A stretch of 64,000 nt of DNA from positions 62,001 through 126,000 of the forward strand of contig CAIQIA010000011.1 in the NCBI GenBank assembly GCA_903871775.1, in the 5' to 3' direction. The first letter of the stretch is position 1; the number at the start of each line of letters is the position of its first letter. Below, one piece after another: positions 53,647 to 55,536 of this stretch. A model generated the notes under the pieces. That model worked only from the letters and a program-made list of their open reading frames with translations. It was not told the origin of the DNA and searched no databases. The stretch comes from an uncultured cyanobacterium. GTDB lineage: Bacteria; Cyanobacteriota; Cyanobacteriia; PCC-6307; Cyanobiaceae. The translations under genes were made by a program, and so were the position numbers.

Positions 53647-54028
53647 GGAAAGCAGGACATAAGCCGGGTTCTGTTCTCCGGCCGGCGAGGCCGACCGGGG
53701 GCGATCATCTGTCTGGGACCGCCGTTGCCGACGGCCTCGAGCGGCGCAGAAGACGGAACCGGTGAATGGTCACCCCTGGTTCCTGGGCCTTGCTCCCGGC
53801 CGGGGTTTACCGAGCCAGCGCCTCTCGACGCTGCTGGTGCGCTCTTACCGCACCTTTGCACCCTTGCCTGTGCCTGGATGATCCAGGCCATCGGCGGTGT
53901 GTTTCTGTGGCACTATCCTCACGGTCACCCGCACTGGGCGTTACCCAGCAAGCCTGACCATTGGGGAGCCCGGACTTTCCTCAGCCGACACCGGATGGTG
54001 GCGACTGCGATCACCTCGCCTGCTTTCC
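53647..54028 (-). ncRNA. rnpB: RNase P RNA (type A, cyanobacterial)
   Basis: Catalytic RNA of RNase P, which matures tRNA 5' ends. Read on the minus strand, the ends pair as P1 (GGAAAGCAGG at 54028-54019 with CCTGCTTTCC at 53656-53647). The universal core GAGGAAAGTCCGGGCTCC (53982-53965) and the 3' ACAGAACCCGGCTTAT (53674-53659) are intact. GGTAACGCCCAGTGCGGGTG, GTGCCACAGAAACA and TCGGTAAACCCCGG fall between in the known order. Length is about 382 bases, near the cyanobacterial norm. The ends are deduced from P1 and could shift by a few bases. Its 5' end lies five bases after the stop of the preceding protein gene. Confidence 0.95.
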
Positions 54029-54033
54029 AGGTT

Positions 54034-54837
54034 TCAAGCTACAGGAAGGCGCTGGCGAAGCCGTCGACGCAACCGCAGGGCACCTGCGGCGAGGGTGCCC
54101 ACACCCAGGACGGGCAAGGGGGCGGGCACAGCTGCCACATTATCTCGGGTGAGTTCACCGCCCGAAATCAGGGCACGGGTTTCGAGAATCTGCCCCCCGG
54201 GAAGGCCATTGACGGTGGTGTTGGAGGGAGCCGGAACCGTGGCGCTGTTGTTGTTGAAGAGGAATGAGGAGGCGATGACGTCGTCCTGAACCGTGGAGCC
54301 GGCTGGAATCGTGTATCGAAGATAGAAGGGGGAGCCCAGAGGCCCCGGACCTGGAACAGACACGATCGGCGTGTAGTTGTAACCAGGAAGGGAGCCAGTA
54401 CCAGAGCCGGATACGAACGAGGACTGAAACGTGGTGAATGAAGCCGGGTCAACACTTCGAGACCAACCTAGGTTGGTGAGAGTTACAGGAGCCCCAGGGG
54501 CAGCGCCACCGGAAGCTGAATTAAATAAACCGAACTGAAAATACTGAGCCCCGGCACGAGGCGGCGTAACAGAACCATTCAGCTTTGCGTCATCGTACTT
54601 AAGAATAACAGTATTATCAATATTATAATCGAATTCAGGGCAACTATTGGAGTAAATGGCTAGATTTTGAACCGGGTTGCCAATACAGGCCCTAGCGGGC
54701 TGAATCAGACTTACAACCAAACCAGCGCTGCCGACAATTCCAACACTCAATCCCCCCGCAGCGAATCGACGAGAAACAGTTTTAAGAGCAATGAGAAAAT
54801 CAGTCACGGTCAACATCTCAAAGACCATGAGTAGCAA
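54034..54837 (-). CDS. Secreted protein with PEP-CTERM-like tail, paralog 1
   Basis: A 267-residue AT-rich gene product of unknown function. The first ~50 residues hold a signal peptide ending SLIQPARA. The mature body is rich in Asn, Ser, Gly and Tyr and shares with its neighbour the blocks PRAGAQYFQF, TNLGWSR, FTTFQSSFV and GSPFYLRYTIPAG. The end has a sorting-signal layout: VPAPLPVLGVGTLAAGALRL then RRRLRQRL, i.e. a Pro motif, a hydrophobic span and an Arg cluster, as in PEP-CTERM proteins. The start is probably TTG 54837, eight bases after AGGAG inside the upstream gene's end; ATG 54828 or 54816 are possible. Base composition differs sharply from its surroundings. Confidence 0.78.
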   Translation of the reverse strand: MLLMVFEMLTVTDFLIALKTVSRRFAAGGLSVGIVGSAGLVVSLIQPARACIGNPVQNLAIYSNSCPEFDYNIDNTVILKYDDAKLNGSVTPPRAGAQYFQFGLFNSASGGAAPGAPVTLTNLGWSRSVDPASFTTFQSSFVSGSGTGSLPGYNYTPIVSVPGPGPLGSPFYLRYTIPAGSTVQDDVIASSFLFNNNSATVPAPSNTTVNGLPGGQILETRALISGGELTRDNVAAVPAPLPVLGVGTLAAGALRLRRRLRQRLPVA

Positions 54838-55536
54838 TTACTTAGCTCCTGAAGCAGTCTTCAGGCGACGGCGGAACCTTGAGGCTGTTCCAAGAGCCAT
54901 AAAGACTCCAACAGCTGGAAGTGGCCCAGGAACATTTTCACGGGAGGTGTGATCCCTGTTAAGGTCGACGAAGGACGTGAGGGAAGAACCAGTCAACAGA
55001 CCGTTGGCATCAACTGCGCCATTATTATTTGCAAGAAACTTGACCTCAAAAGTCTCATTCAAGGCAACTCCAGCGGGAATCGTATAGCGCACATAAAATG
55101 GATTTCCGAGAGGATCAGACCCACTGGCAGCCAGAATATCTGTTACCCCAGTAGCAACCGCCGTAGCCCCAACAGCGAGACTGGGCTGGAATGACGAAAA
55201 GGGACCACCAGGAAGTCGCGACCATTCAAAATTGCTAACAGTGTATGATCCACCAAGAACAGTATTCATAACGATTTGAAAATATCTGGCACCAGCGCGA
55301 AGGGGAGCAACACTATTGTTAAGCTTCGGATCGCTCAATCTGATTGTGGCTTGCGACGCAGAGGTGCTTCCGCTGTAAAAAGTGGTGCAATTGTTGCCAT
55401 CCACAGCCAGACTGCCCGATACACAGAATGCTTGTGCCGACTGAGGGAGTGAGGCGACTCCAACGATGGCGAACGTCGTGCCGAGGGCCCAGCGACCGAT
55501 GGAGGGAAGCACTGCTTGAAAGACAGGTGGTCCCAC
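54838..55536 (-). CDS. Secreted protein with PEP-CTERM-like tail, paralog 2
   Basis: A 232-residue product from GTG 55536 (a GTG at 55512 is also possible). The signal peptide RWALGTTFAIVGVASLPQSA precedes a probable cleavage after QAF or SAQA. The body shares PLRAGARYFQIV, VSNFEWSRLPGG, FSSFQPSLAVG and GNPFYVRYTIPAG with the downstream paralog, so the pair arose by duplication. The C-terminus repeats the tripartite tail: VPGPLPAVGVFMALGTASRF then RRRLK. It is predicted to be exported and processed or anchored by an exosortase-like enzyme, none of which is in this window. It abuts the next gene directly. The gene is markedly AT-rich compared with the rest of the window. Confidence 0.78.
   Translation of the reverse strand: MGPPVFQAVLPSIGRWALGTTFAIVGVASLPQSAQAFCVSGSLAVDGNNCTTFYSGSTSASQATIRLSDPKLNNSVAPLRAGARYFQIVMNTVLGGSYTVSNFEWSRLPGGPFSSFQPSLAVGATAVATGVTDILAASGSDPLGNPFYVRYTIPAGVALNETFEVKFLANNNGAVDANGLLTGSSLTSFVDLNRDHTSRENVPGPLPAVGVFMALGTASRFRRRLKTASGAK

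Follow-up and report, generated by a model that had tools for sequence, protein, structure and literature searches.

The locus beside rnpB

The window (the whole 64,000-nucleotide stretch of DNA that was analysed) belongs to a host genome of 2.57 Mb which is 96% complete, and whose nearest named relative, a genome from a metagenome, bears the label Synechococcus sp. UW140 (L113, which is the same contig as in the same-genus genome G032); further relatives carry the labels Cyanobium, Synechococcus and uncultured cyanobacterium. On the minus strand, the order begins with an HpsJ-like gene (56765-55587), whose product is a membrane protein of 392 aa; immediately downstream comes the gene for a first, putatively secreted tail protein (P0002, 55536-54838, 232 aa), followed by the gene for a second one (P0001, 54837-54034, 267 aa counted from the first TTG), rnpB (54026-53645) and the ribonuclease III gene (rnc). 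The start of P0001 is uncertain: its open reading frame opens at a TTG right behind the stop codon of P0002, AGGAG precedes this TTG by 8 nt, and ATGs occur further inside the frame. A terminator-like hairpin sits between the HpsJ-like gene and P0002, and such hairpins are no commoner here than in shuffled sequences. The RNase P RNA gene rnpB (minus strand, RF00010, 243.6 bits) is no part of the sorting system discussed below and serves as landmark of a conserved locus, with the same neighbour also in L040 and L043/L114. The gap from the P0001 stop to rnpB is 7 nt (6 nt in L040, a same-genus relative); either rnpB is co-transcribed with the putative surface-protein genes, or its promoter lies inside P0001.

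At first pass, the two adjacent genes had been described as coding for secreted proteins with common sequence blocks and an identical C-terminal layout, and this is confirmed: both open reading frames lie at the coordinates given, and the pairwise comparison (36% identity across 236 residues, E = 2e-30) makes P0001 a paralogue of P0002. The common blocks are RAGAxYFQ, WSR, FxxFQ, PLGxPFYxRYTIPAG and FLxNNN. By inspection of the translations, each protein starts with a signal-peptide-like segment, located at 55429-55536 in P0002 (residues 1-36, ...LPQSAQA|FC) and at 54688-54837 in P0001 (up to residue 50, ...LIQPARA|C), and both mature proteins start with a conserved cysteine pair. The C-terminal ends of the pair read VPGPLPAVGVFMALGTASRFRRRLKT... 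or VPAPLPVLGVGTLAAGALRLRRRLRQ..., and in both VP(G/A)PLP leads into a short hydrophobic span, behind which comes an Arg cluster. The VPGPLP tail of P0002 occupies residues 202-232 (54841-54933) and the VPAPLP tail of P0001 residues 237-267 (54037-54129). In P0002 the hydrophobic span has about 14 residues, under a simple 19-residue threshold, and AlphaFold gives a helix of low confidence at residues 209-228.

The beta-rich body of P0002 and P0001 had been called undescribed, and it indeed gave no match in Pfam, NCBIfam, PHROGs, PDB sequences or PDB folds. AlphaFold models this type of body as an all-beta sandwich (mean pLDDT 58, core 74-83). The best matches in the fold search, which include adhesin, lectin and carbohydrate-binding domains, have E values of 0.01 or above and TM scores below 0.45 and are not significant; since such values are not evidence, deriving a function from them was abandoned. 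As modelled, the body may resemble adhesins or bind carbohydrate.

The pair stands out in base composition, as the first-pass annotation had noted: P0002 and P0001 have GC contents of 54.9% and 51.9% and GC3 values of 0.53 and 0.45, versus 0.78-0.91 in neighbouring genes, the kilobase 54001-55000 has the lowest GC among the 64 of the window, and the drop is confined to these two genes. From this contrast, recent acquisition had been proposed; in its strictest form, the pair would be an AT-rich island that has nothing to do with the sorting system of the host. Against this stands the gene order in another genus (G186/L114), which runs glgP, two small genes and a tRNA, two HpsJ-like genes, a tail protein gene, rnpB, rnc, an HpsJ-like gene, a tail protein gene, rimM and manC. 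In the window, glgP and the same two small genes and tRNA are followed by the HpsJ-like gene, P0002, P0001, rnpB, rnc, rimM, a CorA-like gene and manC. The other genus thus holds the same types of gene between glgP and rimM, one of its tail genes with an equally low GC3 (0.465), and recent acquisition was rejected on this synteny. An island would require independent insertions at the two sites. Further points against it are the host genes in the exosortase operon (see below), which bear the same tail, and the plasmid and phage collections, which gave no match with one protein tried in each; we regard it as scarcely credible. In the nearest same-genus relative, P0001 still adjoins rnpB. Because the other genus shares the site, with low GC3 in one gene, it is likelier that these genes inherited their low GC at this site than that they entered recently.

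The VP(G/A)PLP tail and known sorting signals

A profile was built from 30 tails gathered from relatives, starting from P0002 and P0001 and including both window tails. Despite unrelated bodies (among others a GDSL lipase, ScyD/ScyE-type NHL proteins and a matrixin-like peptidase), the aligned tails share VPxPLPxLGxGxAFGxSRRLRRR, with a hydrophobic span and then a basic cluster at the C-terminus. On the own genome, the profile recovers P0002 (E = 5.6e-13) and P0001 (E = 3.9e-9), both of which are part of it, plus more copies elsewhere, which shows that the resemblance among the tails is not due to chance. All genome-wide statements given here come from profile searches and refer to the matches listed. 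Among the 251 family genomes searched, 34 give a strong match (E below 1e-8) and have between 1 and 32 copies; outside the family, no VPxPLP tail was found at E <= 0.001 in 242 sampled genomes of the class. Between the prolines, the 59 complete tails carry G (48), A (10) or S (1) and never Glu, though the search pattern permitted E. A signal-peptide-like start, assessed with a crude rule, is present in 53 of the 59 complete tail ORFs versus 291 of 823 control ORFs.

The nearest known system is PEP-CTERM/exosortase sorting (PF07589/TIGR02595; Haft 2006, PMC1569441), which has in common with the present one a signal peptide, a short conserved proline motif, a hydrophobic span, a basic cluster, its occurrence in many copies per genome and on unrelated bodies, and an exosortase with Cys, Arg and His motifs. 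It differs in the motif itself, which here is VP(G/A)PLP instead of the near-invariant PEP and lacks Glu. PF07589 gave no match in the 56 family genomes searched, 45 of them exosortase-bearing; the model does work on cyanobacteria, since it matches 75 of 145 genomes of the class, every one outside the family. Based on this absence and on the missing Glu, the tail was rejected as a canonical PEP-CTERM. The cyanobacterial model TIGR04155 (cyano_PEP) matches 4 of 24 tail proteins weakly (best E = 7e-4), although one sister tail protein scored 16.3 bits, under the 21.6 cut-off, and P0001 and P0002 gave no match to it. This suggests the cyanobacterial PEP tail as a probable ancestral signal of VP(G/A)PLP; the case for descent is made from layout and the weak TIGR04155 matches, because a direct comparison of its profile with that of six canonical PEP tails gives a probability of 36%, which is weak. 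VPLPA-CTERM/XrtD (TIGR04152) also has a proline-rich VPxP motif, but its tail models did not match the tail proteins, and the own exosortase reaches 29 bits against an XrtD cut-off of 400. No paper describing a VP(G/A)PLP tail was found in the open-access literature, to which the search was confined (subscription journals lay outside its scope). The PEP tail thus appears, from these comparisons, to have been replaced by VP(G/A)PLP across this cyanobacterial family.

Exosortases and their association with the tail

The earlier reading, in which the tail marks PEP-CTERM-like exosortase substrates that have PxPLP where PEP would stand, had come with the suggestion to look for an exosortase in the same genome, and two were found: L001, of type A, on contig C14, and L002, of type B. 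Neither of the outcomes named at first pass as refuting it, a lack of exosortases in tail-bearing genomes or tails on proteins devoid of signal peptides, came about. The Cys-x-Gly, Asn-x-x-Arg and His-x3-Gly motifs named for EpsH by Haft and colleagues (PMC1569441) are intact in 48 of 49 exosortases, both own ones included. L001 (motifs CNG, NVFR and HKGSG) scores 100.7 bits against PF09721 (cut-off 25.7) and 120.7 bits against its nearest model, cyanoexosortase A (TIGR03763), which is under the 150-bit cut-off and makes it a relative rather than a filed member. It lies in an operon-like row composed of a glycosyltransferase, exosortase A, an accessory protein, an HpsJ-like protein and two successive tail proteins; the HpsJ-like gene and the two tail genes of the window correspond to the second half of this row.

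The association also holds across the family. Exosortases (PF09721) are present in 45 of the 251 genomes, namely in 32 of the 34 with the tail and in 13 of the other 217. The two genomes with a tail only are 85% and 88% complete, and 204 have neither (p = 1e-27, a value that treats genomes as independent, though they are related). The genus-level figure is safer, because related genomes are not independent: 9 genera have both, 0 the tail only, 3 an exosortase only and 47 neither (p = 2e-8), which places all 9 tail genera within the 12 exosortase genera (59 in total).

In the exosortase tree (some branches of which are long), the enzymes split into a type-A side and a type-B clade. The strong tail is found in 31 of 33 genomes with a type-A-side exosortase versus 1 of 12 with type B only (G037). 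Type-B loci bear a different tail, VPxP...LxP...RRRY. This class was built from seven type-B loci, and, with the building genomes left out, 4 of the 5 genomes bearing it have a type-B enzyme. The two family tail classes resemble each other better (93% in profile comparison) than the new tail resembles the canonical ones. The known cyanoexosortases, A (TIGR03763) and B (studied in Nostoc as CrtB, PMC12188702), differ from the present system in both tail and lineage.

These data bear on two other explanations. The first takes the tail as a mere membrane anchor, with P0001 and P0002 remaining uncleaved as type-I plasma-membrane proteins held by a stop-transfer Arg cluster. A hydrophobic span followed by an Arg cluster is the usual stop-transfer layout, and the positive charge predicts a cytoplasmic C-terminus; however, a plain anchor would not need a near-fixed pattern of VPxPLP, G and RxxRxR on unrelated bodies, nor would it call for co-occurrence with one exosortase type and a place in the exosortase operon, and we consider this explanation highly unlikely. 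In the second, another protease (rhomboid-like or site-2-type) would process the tail, the exosortase link reflecting a shared surface-polysaccharide life style. The genomes with the system are large and non-streamlined, so that many surface functions would correlate, and, as myxosortase and rhombosortase show, tails of this kind can be read by other enzymes (PMC11980579, PMC3237569). Nevertheless, the tail class tracks the exosortase type even within exosortase-bearing genomes, and tail genes and exosortase share one operon, which makes processing by another protease highly improbable.

The exosortase reading of the tail is strongly supported by the sequences, the co-occurrence, the operon and neighbourhood linkage and the active-site motifs. 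In our estimate, the probability is roughly 0.8 that P0002 and P0001 are substrates of the own type-A exosortase (C14, L001) and that their tail is a family-wide PEP-CTERM variant. This variant of PEP-CTERM/exosortase sorting is new and was overlooked by the libraries searched. Exosortase sorting is well mapped in sequence and poorly understood, and picocyanobacteria seemed to have exosortases without substrates because PEP models overlook the tail. Recognition of VP(G/A)PLP yields up to dozens of candidate surface proteins in these organisms, the two exosortase types with their two tails offer a natural test of specificity, and the hosts, being unicellular with small genomes, are organisms in which the pathway could be tested.

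Some individual loci deserve mention. The second tail class (VP(S/A/G)P...LxPL...RRRY) lies near type-B exosortases, in an HpsJ-exosortase operon, at L063, L066, L072, L075, L076, L107 and L108. At L037 (5604-7037), the two tail proteins adjoining the type-A exosortase are another tandem duplicate, with a different body family. The 1.7-Mb genome of L065 (G067) has one exosortase, about 0.7 kb from which lies one divergent tail gene (PGPLPILGFIPFITYSRKIKRK); the two may be an enzyme and a substrate dedicated to each other. In G112, whose genome has 18 tail genes, the sole type-A exosortase (L091) is broken by a TAG stop, which is either a pseudogene mark, a case of readthrough or a sequencing error.

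HpsJ-like genes and the proposed route

The most informative part of the locus is the HpsJ-like gene directly upstream of P0002 (55587-56765, minus strand), which was absent from the first-pass annotation. It aligns over its full length with NF050013 ('HpsJ-like protein, cyanoexosortase A-associated'; E = 1.4e-14) at 54.2 bits, under the curated cut-off of 140 bits, and is a divergent relative. From hydropathy and charge, the protein has three membrane segments (TM1-3), then a long hairpin of helices spanning about 90 aa, TM4 and a charged C-terminus; the hairpin would be periplasmic, as suggested by the basic TM2-TM3 loop. The AlphaFold model is helical and confident in its core (mean pLDDT 73.8, about 90 across residues 50-260), and a fold search gave no significant match.

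Members of the HpsJ family (NF050013, NF038305) are likewise membrane proteins, with an existing annotation as associated with cyanoexosortase A; in the present family, such genes adjoin the type-B exosortase and also lie within the type-A operon. What is different here is that they are multiplied (up to 19 copies per genome, all under the curated cut-off) and scattered beside individual substrate genes. Among 150 tail genes listed, at least 53 have an HpsJ-like gene within 2 kb (about 1.2 expected), which among the matches listed is downstream on the same strand in 42 of these pairs; the window is reversed with respect to this majority, with the HpsJ-like gene upstream of the tail genes. Copy numbers of the two types of gene correlate across the family (rho 0.78), and the relatives of P0002 in L110, L111, G147 and G162 also adjoin an HpsJ-like gene. 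The pairing of substrate and HpsJ-like genes, hitherto unreported, appears to be the more novel of the findings.

Based on what is known of PEP-CTERM/EpsH (PMC1569441) and of a Nostoc CrtB mutant (PMC12188702), we infer the following route for P0002 and P0001. After export by Sec, both proteins would stay in the plasma membrane, anchored through the C-terminal helix; VP(G/A)PLP (in which the Glu of PEP would be replaced by G or A, LP following) would face the periplasm, and the Arg cluster would lie on the cytoplasmic side. The Cys-Arg-His exosortase would then cleave at or near VP(G/A)PLP, and the beta-rich body would be passed to the outer surface or the exopolysaccharide, with a putative role in surface adhesion. 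Most likely, the HpsJ-like protein encoded upstream would act as the membrane partner of these substrates, its hairpin reaching into the periplasm. In Nostoc, loss of CrtB alters the exoproteome, motility, adhesion to polysaccharide and biofilm, and the way in which exosortase substrates cross the outer membrane and the site of their attachment are described as unclear (PMC12188702).

The finding points to HpsJ-like proteins as substrate partners, and a modular arrangement is conceivable, though we hold it only tentatively: a general exosortase would read VP(G/A)PLP, and each substrate or small group of substrates would have its own HpsJ-like protein selecting, holding or exporting it. If so, the HpsJ-like proteins would fill the place of the substrate-specific factors for export or anchoring that are missing from exosortase sorting, and the window would contain one module (HpsJ-like, P0002 and P0001) apart from the exosortase operon. 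Outside the family, where adjacency was judged by eye among the matches listed, one case was seen: in G337 (C1:3112394-3113146), an HpsJ-like gene lies 70 bp behind a canonical PEP tail gene, possibly an older precedent of the pairing.
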